From positions 1,729,133 through 1,793,132 of the forward strand of contig NZ_JAEHGD010000001.1 in NCBI RefSeq assembly GCF_016097405.1: a stretch of 64,000 nucleotides of DNA, written 5' to 3'. Shown in pieces: positions 53,366 through 62,242 of this stretch. The translations under genes and the position numbers were made by a program. The stretch is from a methane-oxidizing endosymbiont of Gigantopelta aegis. GTDB taxonomy: Bacteria; Pseudomonadota; Gammaproteobacteria; Methylococcales; Methylomonadaceae. Numbering within the stretch: the first letter of the stretch is position 1; each line of letters opens with the position of its first letter. The notes beneath the pieces were generated by a model. The model was not told where the DNA came from, did not search any database, and saw nothing but the letters and a program-made list of their open reading frames with translations.

Positions 53366-53409
53366 CGTGTTATTTTCTTTTGTCGATGATGAACAGACAT
53401 GATGGAACT

Positions 53410-54066
53410 ATGTATTCAAAACTAAGACAATTCGTCCGGAAATTTATTAATCAGGCCTATTATAAAAGCCGGGAATCCCTGCTTGGGCATCATAAACGCG
53501 ATATTGTCGTGGTTCATGTCGATGCTGCCTGTGATAGCTTAGAAGACAGCCGGGAACAATTTGAAGATACATTGGAAAAATTTAAAACTCTGTTGACACT
53601 GCCTGATCTGTCGCTGGAATACCGTTATCAGCAACTTAAAAAGCAATATGACTTTTGCCGCATTAAAACTGATGAAGTAAGTCACAGAATTCGGGCCATT
53701 GAGGAAGTTTCCGAAGCCTTGTTCGAGGAATGGGAGCAGGAGCTGGATTTATACAGTAACCGCACGTTAAGAATGCGCAGTAAGCAGCAGCTGGAAAAAT
53801 CACGTCGACAATATAAAAAACTGATTAAAGCAATGAAAAAAGCCGAGGCGCGTATTTATCCGGTATTGAATGCCTTTCAAGATCAGGTTTTATTTTTAAA
53901 ACATAACCTCAATGCGCAAGCGATTGCTGCATTACAGCAGGAATTTGCGGTGATCAGTTTGGATATTTCTAAACTCATTGCCATTATGGAAAAAACTATT
54001 GCTGAGGCTAGCCAGTTTGTGTCGGTATTAACCGAACAAAAACAATTACCAGGTTCGACAACATAA
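53410..54066 (+). CDS. DUF2959 family coiled-coil protein
   Basis: 218 residues from ATG 53410 (M-Y-S-K-L-R-Q); TTG 53380 and ATGs 53386/53389 are in frame. Almost wholly helical and charged. H-K-R-D-I-V-V-V-H-V, A-L-F-E-E-W-E-Q-E-L-D-L-Y, and Q-V-L-F-L-K-H-N-L-N-A-Q-A-I-A-A-L match the DUF2959 family. Function unknown. No clear link to the cofactor genes upstream. Confidence 0.8.
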   Translation: MYSKLRQFVRKFINQAYYKSRESLLGHHKRDIVVVHVDAACDSLEDSREQFEDTLEKFKTLLTLPDLSLEYRYQQLKKQYDFCRIKTDEVSHRIRAIEEVSEALFEEWEQELDLYSNRTLRMRSKQQLEKSRRQYKKLIKAMKKAEARIYPVLNAFQDQVLFLKHNLNAQAIAALQQEFAVISLDISKLIAIMEKTIAEASQFVSVLTEQKQLPGSTT

Positions 54067-54111: not shown

Positions 54112-54540
54112 TTACATATTGCCTAGGTTATACAAGACATTGTTTTGTCGATCACGTGGATCTGGACGTTTACGGCGATTTTGTTCCATTCGTTGCTTGG
54201 TATAATCGGCAATCATTTGCTCCCAGCTATCGAATTTGTCATAGCCTTTAAAACCCGCGTTTTTCCGTTCCTGGAATAGTTTTTTACCTTCTTCAATCAA
54301 TTCTTCCGGCGTTTTGCCGTCAACAGTATCTAGGAATTCCTTTTTATCCCGAATCGCATCCCTGAGTGACCAAAAAGAAACTTCAAACTCGATCCGTTTT
54401 TCTACCGGCAAACGGTCTTTAATATAACTGACAGAACGGTTTGCAGTGCGTAGACTACGACCATTGATTTGATTGCCTTTGCTGCACGCCGTCAAAAACA
54501 AGCATAAAATCAGGGTAAGAATTGTGGGTAAAGCTTTCAT
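54112..54540 (-). CDS. Small lipoprotein of unknown function
   Basis: 142 residues from ATG 54540 with GAGG 6 bp upstream. Lipobox L-T-A-C at about 16-19 follows a hydrophobic stretch, so an N-terminal lipid-modified Cys is likely. Mature part is charged and helical: S-L-R-T-A-N-R-S, L-P-V-E-K-R-I-E-F-E, T-V-D-G-K-T-P-E-E-L-I-E-E-G. This recalls DUF6694-type lipoproteins but the match is from memory and weak. Confidence 0.6.
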   Translation of the reverse strand: MKALPTILTLILCLFLTACSKGNQINGRSLRTANRSVSYIKDRLPVEKRIEFEVSFWSLRDAIRDKKEFLDTVDGKTPEELIEEGKKLFQERKNAGFKGYDKFDSWEQMIADYTKQRMEQNRRKRPDPRDRQNNVLYNLGNM

Positions 54541-54831
54541 AATTAACCTCAAAAAGATTGGCATTGTATAGTTTATTTTAATTTTGAATTCAAATGCTTA
54601 GGGTTATAACAAGGAGATAGTCAAGTTAAATTGTACCGCATCAGTCAGAGAATTTCCTGTTTTTAAAAGACACTGCGTCAAAATCAGGTTTGTAGATAGG
54701 GGAGGTGTTAGAGCGGTATGGTCTGAAGCTATTTTTGTTGTATATAGAGACTTTTGCGGAATAGTAAGAGCACATTGAAAACCAAATAAACAGCACCAGG
54801 AAGCGATCGGGTATAGAGGTTATCAATAAAT
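54541..54831. other. Intergenic stretch without a recognisable gene
   Basis: 291 bp. A 61-codon minus-strand frame (54641-54826) has no ribosome-binding site and no family features. Nothing else seen. Confidence 0.4.
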
Positions 54832-54979: not shown

Positions 54980-55797
54980 GGGGCTGTTGCCGTTTTGAAA
55001 ATCCCCCTTGAAATTCAATAACTCCGCCACATAGATTGTTTATTTTGACTCAAAAACAAGCAAACTATGCCCCGACAAATGCTTACGGATGAACTTTGGG
55101 AGAAACTGAAGATAATTATGTTGAAAATGGGAATTTATGACAAACCTTGTCTTCGAAAAACAGTCGAAGGTATTTTTTATCGCTTGCGAGTAGGTTGTCC
55201 CTGGAGAGATTTACCCACGGCTTTTGGTAATTGGAATGCGGTATATAAACGATTCAATGACTGGTCTCGTAAAGAAAAACTGATGGATCCAGACCTGGAA
55301 TGGGAATTTATTGATGGGAGTATTGTGAAAGCACATCAGCATAGTAGTGGTGCGGCCTGTGAACAAGAAACAGCGATAGGGAAATCTGTCGCCGGGAACA
55401 CCAGTAAAATTCATATGGCCGTTGATGCCTGTGGTCTTCCTATTCATTTCTCAGTGACAGGCGGCGAAGTTCATGACTGTAAAGAAGCACCGAAATTAGT
55501 TGCAGAGCTCCCAAAAGGTGACTATATAGTTGCTGACAGAGGCTATGACAGTGAAGCATTACGTCTTCAAATTAAAGACAAAGGGCTGTTCCTGTTATCC
55601 CAAGAAAAAAGAATTCAACTCGGGGAAATGATGAAATGGATTGGTGTCTCTACAAATATCGCCATCTCGTTGAAAATGTGTTTGCAAGACTTAAGCATTT
55701 CAGAGCGATCGCCACGCGATATGACAAACTCAAACGAAATTTTGAAGGCTCTATCGCTCTGGCTTGCGCCTTTTTATGGTTACCTATCAACAGCCCC
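54980..55797 (+). mobile_element. IS5-family (IS427/IS1031-like) element
   Basis: 818 bp with perfect inverted ends GGGGCTGTTG / CAACAGCCCC and a TA duplication (54978-54979, 55798-55799). Size and transposase fit the small IS5-family subgroup. Confidence 0.9.
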
Positions 55798-55800
55798 TAA
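55067..55800 (+). CDS. IS5-family transposase in two frames
   Basis: Frame 1 from ATG 55067 holds F-I-D-G-S-I-V-K-A-H and V-A-D-R-G-Y-D-S; the third catalytic residue lies in the -1 frame, which reads V-P-V-I-P-R-K-K-N-S-T-R-G-N, D-W-C-L-Y-K-Y-R-H-L-V-E-N-V-F-A-R-L-K-H-F and ends at TAA 55798-55800. The switch falls at about 55583-55586 (A-A-A-G-G-G). Either programmed -1 frameshifting, known in this group, or a one-base deletion. Without a shift the frame runs on to 55831 with a foreign tail. Confidence 0.85.
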
Positions 55801-56282
55801 AAACAAAGTGAAATTTGTGGATGCCTCGTGAATTTCTTCCCAAAATTCCTCTTCTTGCTCATTTTCCTTTTCATACTCATCATCGCGCTCATCTTCATCC
55901 GCATATACGTTATCGATTATGCTGAATTCACTCGTTATCTCTGCGAATGGACCAAGGCCTTCTTCAATGGCATAGAGTTTTAGGCCACTTAGGGTCACTA
56001 CAAACAAACTTAACAATAAAGCAAAAATCATATAAGCGCCTGCGGGATTATGCCCAACATAATGGGTTGGTTTTTTTTTCATGAGCTCTTTCAGATATTG
56101 AATAACTTCAGTGGGTGAATATAGAAAACTACTGAAGCGTGCATACTTACTGCCAATGAATCCCCAAATCACTCTGAATATAATCAGGCCGAGTACGGTA
56201 TAGCCAGAATAAATATGCCAAAGGTTCTCTTCCTCTGCGGTGAAATATGCAATGAAAAAAGAGGTGACCAGCGACCAATGAA

Positions 56283-57106
56283 TGCGCATTGACCCTGAGA
56301 GAACTCTTTAAGCTGCCGTTGAGAGCGACACAGGGATGTTTGTTGTCGTTAGTCCAGTTATTAAAGCTGTCTATCCAGATTCCTCATTACAGTACATTAA
56401 GTCGCCGCCAGCAAACTCTGGAGGTTCGGCTGCCTCGTTCAAGCAGTCGAACGCCAAGACACTTAGTCGTCGATTCGACCGGCTTAAAGTCTACGGTGAA
56501 GGCGAGTGGAAAGTTCGCAAACATGGTGCCAGCAAGCGCAGAACCTGGCGTAAACTCCATATCATGGTTGATGCACAAACGCAGGAAGTCGTGGCAGTTG
56601 AGATGACGGCTAATTTTGTTGGTGATTCCGAAGTCTTGCCGGATTTATTAGAGCAGCTGGATGAACACGACCAAGTTGCCAGTGTGGCGGCGGATGGCGC
56701 TTATGATACGATCCAGTGTCATCAGGCGATTCGTAACAAAGGCGCCGATGCATTGATACCGCCGCGGGAAGGGGCGGTGGAATGGCCGAGTGATGAAGAT
56801 GGGAGAACTCATCCAAGAACAGCGATTGTTCAACGTTGCGCTGAAATCGGGAGAAAGGCATGGAAACAAGAAAGTGGTTATCATCAACGCAGCCTGGCTG
56901 AAACGGCTATGTTTCGCATCAAAACGCTCTTTAGTGGCCAATTAAAAAACCGGACCTTTGCGGCTCAGATGGTTGAGGCGTATCTCCGCGTCGGCGCAAT
57001 GAATAAAATGACAGGCCTGGGTATGCCTGAAAGTTATTCTGTTTCATGAATAAAGACTGGAATTTAAGAAAAGAGTACGCTGTGGATTATTTATGCAACA
57101 AAGCCC
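56283..57106 (+). mobile_element. 5'-truncated IS5-family (IS903-like) element
   Basis: The right end carries the terminal sequence whose complement is GGCTTTGTTGCATAAAT (up to about 57105), shared with the remnant at 19583. The left terminal repeat and the first part of the transposase are missing; homology begins with A-L-T-L-R-E-L-F at about 56286, against the broken b561 gene. Confidence 0.85.
56286..57049 (+). pseudogene. IS903-like transposase, truncated and frameshifted
   Basis: Frame A (L-F-K-L-P-L-R-A-T-Q-G through H-L-V-V-D-S-T-G-L-K, with the first Asp) passes to frame B (V-Y-G-E-G-E-W-K-V-R-K-H-G onward, with A-A-D-G-A-Y-D-T and S-L-A-E-T-A-M-F-R) by loss of one base at about 56486-56492, where TTAAAGTC replaces an expected TTAAAAGTC. 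The N-terminal third is absent. Not functional as it stands. Confidence 0.88.
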
Positions 57107-57411: not shown

Positions 57412-59154
57412 ATGTTGGAATTTATCCAAACTTTAAAGCAGCGTTATCACGCCGTTTTGTCACGTGTTGATGTGAAACATCCTCGATGGCATGAATACCA
57501 GCGGCGGATAGAGCAGTTGATCTATGCCGAAGCCTTTATCCGTAAAGGAGAAGTGCTGGACCAGGAAGCCTCGTTTCCTTTGCAGATTGCGGTCATCGGC
57601 CCGACACAGGCGGGTAAAAGTTCTGTCGTCAATACTTTGTTAGGCCGTGATCTGGCGGGGGTGAGTCCTTTAGCGGGCTATACCGTGCATCCACAAGGAT
57701 TTTGTAACCAGCACTCAATCGCCGATTGTAAGGGGCTACAATATTATTTTGGCCGCTTTCAACAATTATCAGTCGAGCAATTGAGCGCGCAACGCTATGA
57801 TTGCTATTCACTGGCTGAAAATAATGCATCTTCCGCATTATTGCCCCCTTGCGTGTTATGGGATACGCCCGATTTCGATTCGATTGATGCGGCAGATTAC
57901 AGGGAAGGCGTTATTCGCACCATCGCCTTGGCAGATATTATTATTTTGGTTGTCAGTAAAGAAAAATATGCGGATCAATCCGTCTGGGAAATGATGAAGA
58001 CGATTGAAGCGTTTGCACAACCGACCCTTATTTGCCTGAATAAACTGACGCCGGACAGCGAAGCCTTTATTATTCCATCATTGCAGGAAAAATGGCTGCA
58101 AACTCGTCAGGATGTTTTTCCACAACTGATACCGCTACATTTTGATAAACACAAAGGAAGCCCTGCCTGGCCTGCAGATCAAACGCAGGCCTTAATGGAT
58201 TGTCAGCAACAGGTTGCCCGAAATAAACATGCCTTGCAATGTCATCAATTGCTCTGTCGGTTCTGGGATGACTGGTTAGAACCTGTGCGGGCTGAAATCA
58301 ATGCTGCCGAGCAATGGCGTCACATGGTGGATCAATGTATCGCTCAGGCATTGGAAGAATATCAACGTGATTATCTTAATCATCCGCATTATTACGATAC
58401 CTTTCAGGATGCCTTGGTTGAATTATTGAATTTACTCGAAATTCCAGGGCTTTCCCGCGTATTGGGGACAACACGCAGAATTGTGACCTGGCCGGTACGA
58501 CAGCTGATAAACCTGGGGCGTAAGAATACGTTAGACGGTGTATCGCATGAAGTCACCTTGCTTGAGCAGTTGGCAACGCATGTCCTGATTCAATTGAGCG
58601 AGAAGATTTTAGAAAAAGTCGAGACCGATACGCTTAATAGAGAATGGTGGCAGGATGCCGCCTCCGTCCTGCGCCAACAAAAGAATAAATTACAAGGCCG
58701 CTTTGCCCAGGAAGCTGAAAAATACCATGAGCAGTTTCAGCAGGACGTTGAGCAGACGGCAAAGCGCTTGTATCGTGAACTGGAACAACATCCGATGCTG
58801 TTGAATACCTTGCGCACCACTCGGGCGACAACCGATGCCACGGCGCTAGCGGCCGCTATTTACGGCGGTGGTATCGGCTTGCATGATCTGGTGTTGACGC
58901 CGGCAATGCTATCGATTACCTCATTGCTGGCAGAAAGCGCGGTGAGCAGTTTTATGTCTAAACAAGAGGCCGAACTCAAACGGCATCAGTTAAAAACGGT
59001 CAAACAACGGTTATTTGAAGACCAATTGCAACATGCCTTGAATGTCATTCCACAGCAATTACCGGTCGAAAAACGGTTCAATATTTCAGCCCAGCAATTA
59101 AAACAGGCTGAAGATCAGTTAAATGAGAAAAGAAATGGCTTACGCATACTCTGA
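57412..59154 (+). CDS. Large dynamin-like/Era-like GTPase A
   Basis: 580 residues. G1 G63-P-T-Q-A-G-K-S70, G3-like D151-T-P-D-F-D-S157, and N210-K-L-T where NKxD is expected, so guanine specificity may be relaxed. Long helical middle and end, and a hydrophobic stretch (about 473-513, A-L-A-A-A-I-Y-G-G-G-I-G-L, then L-T-P-A-M-L-S-I-T-S-L-L) that could insert in or lie on a membrane. The layout of GTPase head, helical stalk and hydrophobic patch is dynamin-like. I do not recognise a named family. Its 3' end overlaps gene B by 32 bp. Confidence 0.6.
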   Translation: MLEFIQTLKQRYHAVLSRVDVKHPRWHEYQRRIEQLIYAEAFIRKGEVLDQEASFPLQIAVIGPTQAGKSSVVNTLLGRDLAGVSPLAGYTVHPQGFCNQHSIADCKGLQYYFGRFQQLSVEQLSAQRYDCYSLAENNASSALLPPCVLWDTPDFDSIDAADYREGVIRTIALADIIILVVSKEKYADQSVWEMMKTIEAFAQPTLICLNKLTPDSEAFIIPSLQEKWLQTRQDVFPQLIPLHFDKHKGSPAWPADQTQALMDCQQQVARNKHALQCHQLLCRFWDDWLEPVRAEINAAEQWRHMVDQCIAQALEEYQRDYLNHPHYYDTFQDALVELLNLLEIPGLSRVLGTTRRIVTWPVRQLINLGRKNTLDGVSHEVTLLEQLATHVLIQLSEKILEKVETDTLNREWWQDAASVLRQQKNKLQGRFAQEAEKYHEQFQQDVEQTAKRLYRELEQHPMLLNTLRTTRATTDATALAAAIYGGGIGLHDLVLTPAMLSITSLLAESAVSSFMSKQEAELKRHQLKTVKQRLFEDQLQHALNVIPQQLPVEKRFNISAQQLKQAEDQLNEKRNGLRIL

Positions 59155-60715
59155 ATGTGTTAAACAGGCAAAAGACTGGGCGCAACAGGCGCTTGCCGGA
59201 CACCTGCTTTCAGAAGAACAGGTTCAGGCCTTGCTTGAAATTGAAGACAGAACACCGGACAGTTTGTTTCAAGACATCGAAACACGGCCATTGGTTGTCG
59301 CCTTTATGGGGGGCACCGGTGTCGGTAAAAGCACCTTGTTAAATCGCCTGGCCGGCGCGCCGATTGCGCGTACCGGTGTCGAACGACCGACGTCCCGCGA
59401 AGTGACCTTATTTCACCATCAAAGTCTGAGCATTGACCAGCTGCCTGACGGCTTGCCACTAGAATCGATTAATATCGGCAGCCATCAAAATTCGCATTAT
59501 CAGAATATTTTATGGATCGATATGCCTGATTTCGACAGTGTTGAAACGGCCAATCGACAACTGGTTCTGGAATGGCTGCCGCATATCGATGTGTTGATTT
59601 ATGTCGTCAGCCCCGAGCGATATCGTGACGCTAAAGCCTGGCGGTTATTGTTGCAAGAAGGGGCAAACCATGCCTGGCTGTTTGTCTTGAATAAGTGGGA
59701 TTTAGGCGACAGTGTTCAATATGAAGATTTTAAAACACAATTAAAACAAGCCGGTTTTGACAATCCGGTTATTTTCAAAACCAGCTGTGCCGATACCGGT
59801 TCGGCTGATGAGTTTGAACAACTGGTCGCCTATCTTGAAAAATTATCCAACGCACATATTGTCAAGTCGCTGGACCAGCGCGGAAAAGCGATACGTTTTG
59901 AACAACTGGAACAGCGGCTTGAAGCGCTAGGTCAAACGCTGGCTGCAGAAAAATTTCAGCAACTGGAAAAATTTGCCCGGCAACAATGGCGGCAGCGTGA
60001 AGATATGTTTAAACAGGCGTTTGAATGGCCGTTAAAACAAGCTGCCCAGAACTATGCTGCAAAAGGCGGTGGTAAAACTGAGATTGAGGTGTGGGATCAG
60101 TGGGCGCAAAGCCGTTTTGATGATGTTATAGATGATGTGCTGTTTAAAGCTGCCCAATTACAGATTCCGTCAACTGTATTAAAACAAAGCTTGAAGAAGC
60201 TGGGACAAGAGGTTGGGAAACAAGTCACCGCGAAAACTGAACTGGAATGTCGTAAAGCCTTGATCAATCCCGGAAACCGGATACAGCGATGGACGCTCAA
60301 ATTTCTGAAACTGTCAGAATTTTTGTTACCGCTAGCGGCCATGAGCTTTGTCAGTTATCAGGTTTTTATCGGCTATTATGAAAGCGTCGAGCGTGGTGAA
60401 CCTTTTCTAGGTGTTGATTTTGTGGCGCACAGCATTCTGTTGATTCTATTAAGCTGGCTGATTCCCTTTTTTCTGCATAAAAAACTGCAGCCCTCATTAC
60501 AAAAAACTGCCGAGCGTGGTTTAAAAAAAGGAATGGAGTTGGCTTTGGCCGAATTAGAACAGCATATTCTGCAAGCGATTGAAGCCGAAAAACAACGCAG
60601 TCAGGCGGCACGCGAGGCATTGAGTTCAATCATCCAGATGTGCCGGGATGGTAAACGACAAAATATTGAGCATGCAACGGATCAGGCGTTACAGGATTTA
60701 TTGATGAGTAACTGA
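59123..60715 (+). CDS. Large membrane-anchored GTPase B
   Basis: 530 residues from ATG 59123 (ATG 59135 also possible). G1 G63-G-T-G-V-G-K-S70, D133-M-P-D-F-D-S139, and a canonical N190-K-W-D193. Helical region, then two membrane segments (about 398-417 and 431-451) with a short loop, then a helical tail. Shares the D-x-P-D-F-D-S switch motif with GTPase A, so the two are likely paralogues acting together, A peripheral and B membrane-anchored. Function unknown; stated as inference. Translation is probably coupled to A by the 32-bp overlap. Confidence 0.62.
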   Translation: MRKEMAYAYSECVKQAKDWAQQALAGHLLSEEQVQALLEIEDRTPDSLFQDIETRPLVVAFMGGTGVGKSTLLNRLAGAPIARTGVERPTSREVTLFHHQSLSIDQLPDGLPLESINIGSHQNSHYQNILWIDMPDFDSVETANRQLVLEWLPHIDVLIYVVSPERYRDAKAWRLLLQEGANHAWLFVLNKWDLGDSVQYEDFKTQLKQAGFDNPVIFKTSCADTGSADEFEQLVAYLEKLSNAHIVKSLDQRGKAIRFEQLEQRLEALGQTLAAEKFQQLEKFARQQWRQREDMFKQAFEWPLKQAAQNYAAKGGGKTEIEVWDQWAQSRFDDVIDDVLFKAAQLQIPSTVLKQSLKKLGQEVGKQVTAKTELECRKALINPGNRIQRWTLKFLKLSEFLLPLAAMSFVSYQVFIGYYESVERGEPFLGVDFVAHSILLILLSWLIPFFLHKKLQPSLQKTAERGLKKGMELALAELEQHILQAIEAEKQRSQAAREALSSIIQMCRDGKRQNIEHATDQALQDLLMSN

Positions 60716-60808: not shown

Positions 60809-62242
60809 TTATCGTTTCGTGTGTTGAGTAGAATAAATATAATCAGCCGCTTCATATTTAAGTCGTTTAAAGAGGTCGGGTAAAAAAATTAAGGCTATCA
60901 ATAAGGTTAAGCCTGCAAGTGCGGCAAAAAGGAGATTTGCTTGCTGATTTAAAAATCGAAAGCCTAAGCCGTAAAACAGTGCCGAGAGCAGAATAAATAT
61001 CCAGTTAAGCCAGTTCACCGCAGCAAATACTCGACCTTTGTCTTTTACCGGCGGGCGGGCCTGAATAAAGGCTAATAATGGCACCGAATAAAAACCGGAG
61101 GCGACGCCTAATAAAAAACATAAGGCGAACGCGATAAGCTGGATGTTGAAAGTGGCCGTTGGGAAAATCTGGATCTGTTCTAATAGTTCAGGCGTGTTTT
61201 TTAACTGTTGAAATAACACGAATTCTTCAGTCTGTGGCTGATGCACGGGCAATAGGCTTAAGGTCAGTAAGCACAGTATCAGCACGCTTATCGCCGGTTT
61301 GATCAGGCCGAGTCGTATTTTGCCAGCCGATAGACGCCCCACAATCAGGCTGCCTGCAGCGATGCCCAATGAGGTGACAGCAACCATCAAACTGGTTTCA
61401 AAATTGTTCAGGCCGAGTTGAAAGCGGCCGAAGGCGTTAATTGCCGTGAGTGCTACGCCGCCGACAAACCAAAACCAGGAATAAATCAGCATGATGCGGA
61501 ACATCAATTTATCCTGCTGAAAAACCTCAGCCAAGGTTTTCAGCACGCTGATGAAGGAATGACGGTTGAGGCGGCGTTCAGGATCAGCGGCAGGATGCTT
61601 AGCGATGGCGAGTGAGGAGAGGGTGCCAAATACAGCGATACCGACAGTAATAATACCGGCCAAGTACATTTTTCCGACCAAAAAATCAGCCAGCAAGCCG
61701 GCAACGGCGACCCCCAGAATTATGGCTAAGAATGTGGTCATTTGGGTTAGCCCGGTCGCTTGTGATAAATCATCCAGGCGTACCAGTTCAGGGAGACCGC
61801 CGTATTTGGCCGGACCAAAAAAGGCGCTTTGTGTGCCGAGTAAAAAAGTAACACCGGCCAATAACCACAGATAAAGCGGTACCTGTTGGATTAGAAAGGA
61901 GGTATACGTCATGGTCAGAAAAGCGCCAACACCGAGCAAGGCGATGATGATTTCGGCGATTTTACAGGCGACCATCATGCGGCCTTTGCTGAACTTGTCG
62001 GCTAAATCGCCGGCAATGCCGGAAAAAAGCAGGAAAGGCAGTGCAAAAAGAGACTGAACAACGGCTTGATATTCAACGCCCAACATCAAATAACCAACCC
62101 CCAGTAATAACACCAATTGTTTAAATACATTGTCATTGAAAGCGCCTAGCGCTTGGGTCAGTAAAAAGGCGAGAAATGAGCGGTTTTTGAAAGGTAGTGG
62201 GGGAATATCGTCTGTGGATGGTGGTTGATCGCTTTTGCTCAT
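60809..62242 (-). CDS. MFS transporter, LplT-like
   Basis: 477 residues, twelve predicted helices. N-terminal F-L-L-T-Q-A-L-G-A-F-N-D-N-V-F-K-Q and G-D-L-A-D-K-F-S-K-G-R-M match the LplT/lysophospholipid-flippase group, often fused or linked to acyltransferase/acyl-ACP synthetase domains (absent here). Likely imports lysophospholipid for membrane repair; inference. Convergent with the GTPase pair. Confidence 0.78.
   Translation of the reverse strand: MSKSDQPPSTDDIPPLPFKNRSFLAFLLTQALGAFNDNVFKQLVLLLGVGYLMLGVEYQAVVQSLFALPFLLFSGIAGDLADKFSKGRMMVACKIAEIIIALLGVGAFLTMTYTSFLIQQVPLYLWLLAGVTFLLGTQSAFFGPAKYGGLPELVRLDDLSQATGLTQMTTFLAIILGVAVAGLLADFLVGKMYLAGIITVGIAVFGTLSSLAIAKHPAADPERRLNRHSFISVLKTLAEVFQQDKLMFRIMLIYSWFWFVGGVALTAINAFGRFQLGLNNFETSLMVAVTSLGIAAGSLIVGRLSAGKIRLGLIKPAISVLILCLLTLSLLPVHQPQTEEFVLFQQLKNTPELLEQIQIFPTATFNIQLIAFALCFLLGVASGFYSVPLLAFIQARPPVKDKGRVFAAVNWLNWIFILLSALFYGLGFRFLNQQANLLFAALAGLTLLIALIFLPDLFKRLKYEAADYIYSTQHTKR

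Follow-up and report, generated by a model that had tools for sequence, protein, structure and literature searches.

The last part of a 64,000-nucleotide stretch from a methane-oxidizing endosymbiont of Gigantopelta aegis (order Methylococcales; contig NZ_JAEHGD010000001.1, positions 1,729,133 to 1,793,132), here called the window, carries two overlapping genes, A and B. They are a genuine and conserved pair of dynamin-like genes of the heterotypic kind, and their GTP-binding motifs are divergent and, in most members, complementary. Their putative action on membranes is likely, and the description that we regard as probable is that of a conserved unit of two dynamin-like proteins that would form a single hetero-oligomer at the cytoplasmic membrane and, through nucleotide turnover, tether or reshape it. 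This description is built on the observed pairing, co-occurrence, GTPase (G) domain, motif decay and hydrophobic segments of B, together with a predicted fold of the BDLP/mitofusin type.

Co-occurrence was evaluated, at the level of family matches, in 274 Gammaproteobacteria drawn across the class, as well as in 121 genomes of the order. Within the class, A was found in 20 genomes and B in exactly those 20, which fall in 12 family labels (labels running to at least f171); these counts leave out weakly matching genomes, 21 more for A (best 23.3 bits) and 62 for B (best 34.4 bits), matched mostly in the P-loop region. Both genes adjoin in 19 of the 20 carriers, counting G066, where a contig end cuts A, whose end adjoins B. 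Within the order, A and B were each detected in 99 genomes, with 98 carrying both, one A alone (G380, 83% complete), one B alone and as a fragment (G372, 78% complete), and 21 neither, namely all 18 of family f176, both of family f177, and G362. Of the eight families sampled in the order, six have the pair. It is not usual for either gene to be found by itself, and the original prediction that they form one two-gene unit stands. A and B are each single-copy in their own genome, each search also picking up the other paralogue. In a draw of 398 genomes from the phylum, the only B at E 1e-12 among the matches listed (21 genomes) was that of the window, which says little beyond rarity.

Adjacency is a feature of 90 of the 98 order genomes with both genes, the other eight showing them apart. 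Since both genes are kept in these eight genomes, the pairing is not mere operon inertia, and their retention after separation is the strongest evidence here for a joint function. A contig break is possible in several of these drafts, while G323, G358 and G368 show at least 7.5 kb upstream of B without A. The separated pairs comprise G296 (one contig, with about 0.8 Mb between the genes), six genomes of genus g246, and G368. In the class sample, the reaction-centre-bearing G258 has A and B about 2.5 kb apart, with opposite-strand open reading frames (ORFs) between them. One of the weakly matching genomes left out of the counts, G195 (58% complete, of the same family as the carrier G060), lacks any match to A, and a 3.4-kb contig of it matches B at 27.4 bits over model positions 384-498; searching it with the G060 proteins gave no match, leaving it unconfirmed as a carrier.

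A and B share a G domain beyond chance, in agreement with their earlier designation as paralogous GTPases: BLASTP aligns them at 30% identity over 159 residues (E 4e-11), and profile-against-profile comparison gives E 5.1e-22 over 167 columns, neither method detecting similarity outside this domain. The P-loops announced at residues 63-70 are seen in both translations, as is the unusual D-x-P-D-F-D-S switch motif, DTPDFDS in A and DMPDFDS in B. Among 223 A and 224 B related sequences, mostly from Methylococcales, DxPDxDS occupies the G3 position in 219 and 224, respectively. At G4, A had been described as carrying an altered NKLT and B a normal NKWD. The former is present in the window and reflects a family-wide loss, the A sequences retaining Asn-Lys of NKxD with Asp absent in 217 of 223 (213 of 219 without exact duplicates). 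The latter is correct for the window and not as a family trait: B sequences retain Asn and Asp, and Lys is absent in 212 of 224 (209 of 220 without exact duplicates), being replaced by Gln in 197 and by His in 15 and kept in only 12, the B of the window included. Thus, NKxD decay is complementary across the family, a better description than altered versus normal. The consensus motifs of the dynamin superfamily are DxPG for G3 and NKxD or TKxD for G4; A/B depart from them, which counts among their differences from the Campylobacter pair Cj-DLP1/2, and the G4 of mitofusin/Fzo1 is canonical. Because most members of the A and B families depart from canonical G3 and G4, the pair is called dynamin-like here instead of being filed under canonical dynamins.

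AlphaFold models of A and B match bacterial dynamins, mitofusin/Fzo1 and OPA1 past the GTPase domain, into the neck and trunk. Cj-DLP is the top Foldseek match of both models, mitofusin/Fzo1 provide the best VIA matches, and LeoA is among the structure matches of both. In the predicted models, the G domain is flanked on both sides by helices that build a neck, and long helical trunks span residues 270-544 in A and 244-515 in B, the Foldseek alignments to Cj-DLP and BDLP covering at least 600 columns. The proposed dynamin-like layout, including the stalk on which it depended, is therefore recovered in both predicted structures. The Pfam model PF00350 (Dynamin_N) scores above its gathering threshold for A and B only along model positions 1-28 and 1-42 of 168, corresponding to the P-loop end, beside equally strong generic GTPase models, and our confidence in the hetero-oligomer description is lowered on this account. 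Neither protein is covered at full length by any model of an already characterised family in Pfam, NCBIfam or PADLOC, and searches of the single proteins against the PDB gave nothing more than weak generic matches.

Regarding membrane segments, two clear helices had been attributed to B. In the window's B one segment passes the Kyte-Doolittle cut of 1.6 (start at residue 433, 2.28), while the other, at about 399-419 as judged visually from the alignment, is weaker and falls below it. With the same cut, the B family displays two peaks in 119 of 224 sequences, one in 95 and none in 10. A has no counterpart of this conserved hydrophobic hairpin; its candidate paddle is a glycine-rich stretch, and the model has predicted local distance difference test (pLDDT) values below 50 at residues 469-510.

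The two ORFs and their 32-bp overlap exist as called, but the start of B is probably to be moved. Among the named loci (the best 80 of 358 relatives in one scan, each extending no more than 4 kb past the match), a B ATG is placed for a 20-bp overlap with A in 68, for 11 bp in seven and for neither in five. The second ATG of the window's B fits the 20-bp overlap and the first does not, so position 59135 is the most likely start. Scans of the locus for promoters (two candidate sites, both on the opposite strand, versus 1.6 expected) and terminators (one terminator-like site, also on the other strand) gave nothing usable. Table 1 collects the features.

Table 1. Genes, motifs and flanking features of the A/B locus, in positions of the window.
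Feature	Position	Strand	Remarks
Gene A	57412..59154	+	580 aa; dynamin-like partner predicted to be soluble or peripheral, degenerate G4
Gene B	59123..60715 as called (530 aa), most likely 59135..60715 (526 aa)	+	Predicted membrane-anchored dynamin-like partner
A/B overlap, 20 bp, conserved	59135..59154	+	If B begins at the second ATG
A P-loop GPTQAGKS, residues 63-70	57598..57621	+	GPTQxGKS in 222/223 A sequences
A G3 motif DTPDFDS, residues 151-157, in place of DxPG	57862..57882	+	
A G4 motif NKLT, residues 210-213, Asp of NKxD lost	58039..58050	+	
A candidate membrane paddle, about residues 472-511, conserved, mildly hydrophobic	58825..58944	+	Alignment and hydropathy; low-confidence tip of the model
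B P-loop GGTGVGKS, residues 63-70	59309..59332	+	GGTGxGKS in 200/224 B sequences; GGSGVGKS or GGAGVGKS in 22
B G3 motif DMPDFDS, residues 133-139	59519..59539	+	
B G4 motif NKWD, residues 190-193	59690..59701	+	NQWD in 191/224 B sequences
B predicted membrane hairpin near trunk tip, about residues 398-452	60314..60478	+	Alignment, hydropathy, model helices 386-424 and 431-515
Small putative lipoprotein gene, divergent from A	54112..54564	-	DUF6694-like, below cut-off
DUF2959 protein	53380..54066		Beyond the lipoprotein gene; matches in 47/80 named loci
Insertion-sequence material, two IS5-type transposase genes between lipoprotein gene and A	55067..57049	.	

Such a pair could operate as follows. 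Each protein would comprise a G domain, a neck of N- and C-terminal helices and a long helical trunk. The hairpin at the end of its trunk would anchor B in the inner membrane for good, both termini facing the cytoplasm, while A may bind B through the G domains or the trunk and contact lipid by its hydrophobic tip, which is rich in glycine. The nucleotide sites, divergent in both proteins, would be mutually dependent; B is more likely than A to be the subunit that binds guanine and hydrolyses the nucleotide, A being a partner without the guanine-specifying Asp, and nucleotide binding and hydrolysis would drive membrane tethering or reshaping.

Among the closest described systems is that of Campylobacter jejuni, in which, according to the account in PMC6104087, two adjacent but different dynamin-like genes encode Cj-DLP1/2; the two proteins combine in a 2:2 tetramer, by which membranes are tethered. 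A/B share with them the heterotypic trait of two different adjacent dynamin-like genes kept together, as well as the structural likeness of both models described above. On the contrary, the Campylobacter proteins are of 84.5 and 71.2 kDa versus 580 and 526 residues, a membrane hairpin is predicted in B, and no sequence similarity of Cj-DLP to A or B appeared among the matches listed in the profile search against the PDB. Mitofusin/Fzo1 resemble the models in having a G domain with a neck formed from helices on either side, and the tip helices by which they are permanently attached to the membrane, as summarised in PMC6104087, are reminiscent of the attachment predicted for B; they differ in being eukaryotic, and A lacks tip helices. 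No paper on a methanotroph dynamin pair or on the A/B family in Gammaproteobacteria was found in the open literature, covering titles and the starts of abstracts and with subscription journals mostly outside.

A role as a cell-division helper, with the pair acting at the septum to steady the Z-ring as Streptomyces DynA/DynB do and B anchoring it by two membrane helices, is unlikely, even if it draws on two resemblances. The first is one of description: DynB is presented in PMC8748795 as having two transmembrane segments and working with a partner, DynA, both stabilising Z-rings; in A/B, too, one member (B) is predicted to be membrane-held. The second comes from a search of plasmid records that led to Nonomuraea gerenzanensis, where an A-type and then a B-type gene overlap. 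The B-type protein (540 aa) has DLPDHDS, NQAD and two membrane segments, while the A-type one (897 aa) has DTPDIDS, no NKxD, and hydropathy peaks that are all at or below 1.43. The class-wide B profile matches these two proteins at 1.1e-24 and 4.8e-24 and the A profile at 8.9e-17 and 4.3e-11, with E-values set to 4000 sequences and a set of 183 decoy ORFs that included the four proteins' own frames, the best unrelated decoy reaching E 0.0095 or worse. A wider group of B-type proteins of the Nonomuraea kind (the query and its 120 best hits) has DLPDHDS in all 121, NQxD in 120 and at least two hydrophobic peaks in 120. Their database names are YfjP family GTPase, GTP-binding protein and ABC transporter. 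Thus, the Nonomuraea pair shares with A/B the order with the A-type gene first, the overlap, DxPDxDS in both proteins, NQxD in the B-type and membrane segments in the B-type only. It departs from A/B in that the likeness, also between B-type proteins of that kind and B, is confined to the G domain, and in an A-type protein with a long low-complexity N-terminal extension and a wholly absent NKxD. The Nonomuraea record itself (NZ_LT559118.1, 11.85 Mb) is filed as a plasmid and has 10 annotated features only.

Several aspects argue against the division role: (i) the Nonomuraea pair is at most a candidate DynA/DynB, and similarity between the phyla is that of the G domain only, (ii) no division gene is found among 28 annotated neighbour proteins, which are part of all neighbours, and (iii) 254 of the 274 sampled Gammaproteobacteria divide without the pair.

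Less probable is a role in forming or keeping up the intracytoplasmic membrane stacks found in type I methanotrophs, a link put forward in the original prediction and suggested by the wide presence of the pair in the order and by named relatives that are mostly methanotroph genera. The AMO/pMMO family and the photosynthetic reaction centre are taken here as markers of metabolisms that form internal membranes; their genes occur, respectively, in nine and five of the 274 class genomes. Over the whole class, 4 of 20 carriers (three of the own order and G258) have a marker versus 10 of 254 non-carriers (p 0.013). Nonetheless, this association is gone once the own order is removed, with 1 of 17 carriers versus the same 10 of 254 (p 0.52), and the proposed link is therefore unsupported outside Methylococcales. 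Of the 20 carriers, 16 have neither the AMO/pMMO family nor a reaction centre, and the pair is absent from 10 of the 14 marker-positive genomes. The order families lacking the pair also have AMO-family genes (12 of 18 genomes in f176 and 2 of 2 in f177). Inside the order, the link between pair and marker is inseparable from common descent, and internal membranes are not likely to be the general purpose of the pair.

Similarly improbable is a more ambitious proposal, in which A/B would be an ancient, obligately asymmetric dynamin, one paralogue having lost the Asp and the other, in most lineages, the Lys of NKxD, with nucleotide recognition completed across the A-B interface in a two-chain motor anchored by one chain, inherited as a unit by Gammaproteobacteria and Actinomycetota and, in methanotrophs, tying membrane stacks to the cell membrane. 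We lower its probability because the window's own B retains the Lys of NKxD.

An anti-phage or stress module akin to the Leo/dynamin systems of defence catalogues is very unlikely. PADLOC models do match, each over part of the protein, LeoBC at residues 381-577 of A, in its C-terminal half (2.8e-13), and LeoA at residues 13-79 of A (1.8e-8) and 40-207 of B (3.7e-7), and no full-length match of A or B to them was obtained. Leo proteins are bacterial dynamins, which A/B resemble, yet LeoA is encoded, as PMC4159319 describes it, on a pathogenicity island of enterotoxigenic Escherichia coli, unlike a pair carried by 98 of 121 genomes of an order. Moreover, a mobile or defence element is an unlikely identity: the own genome has each gene once, chromosomal settings such as ubiA-A-B-comF recur, and the plasmid database PLSDB has no record in which one place covers 80% of B and no match whatever for A. 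Finally, the reading of A and B as GTPases of the Era/Der type, serving ribosome assembly or tRNA modification and extended by helices, is rejected as extremely improbable. Profile search does rank Der and Era nearest to A, and YlqF and Der nearest to B, among PDB sequences, but these matches are restricted to the P-loop region, Pfam finds no RNA-binding domain, and the fold matches extend over the dynamin neck and trunk.

The surroundings of the pair recur in part. Relatives of the small putative lipoprotein lie upstream of A in 65 of the 80 named loci, which are mostly from Methylococcales, and are in every case encoded on the strand opposite to A; pabB with its neighbour recurs further up in Methylococcales loci. 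Elsewhere, the pair sits between ubiA and a gene that we take to be comF in G190, G145, G051 and the divergent G060, with comF alone in a fifth genome (calls by Pfam for the G060 genes and by BLAST cluster for the others). Other neighbours vary, including RubisCO, Rnf, TatC, exosortase and RmuC, among others. None of the recurrent neighbours (lipoprotein, DUF2959, pabB region, ubiA, comF) points to a pathway or function. In the window, the insertion-sequence block splits the lipoprotein-A neighbourhood found in relatives; such material is absent between the two genes in G249. The block includes a cytochrome b561-like ORF (55780-56289, minus strand) flanked by the two IS5-type transposase genes; for the second of these (56336-57049) only the later part of the family model is matched, and an ORF at 56289-56606 overlaps in another frame. 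Adjoining B, a major facilitator superfamily gene (60809-62242) has a match, below cut-off although at E 1.1e-68, to the transporter portion of acyl-ACP--phospholipid O-acyltransferase; this LplT-like gene was discarded as a functional neighbour, with a relative in none of the 80 named loci and hence of local occurrence only.

Few systems of paired bacterial dynamins are understood so far, and how the partners divide their labour is a general question. The pair described here is present in six of eight sampled families of Methylococcales, retained even where its genes have parted, and its nucleotide sites show a division of labour that is directly testable through the two G4 motifs. Type I methanotrophs are open to gene deletion, as in the Cas9 editing of Methylococcus capsulatus presented in PMC9942187, which brings a part of the pair in division, repair or internal membranes within experimental reach.

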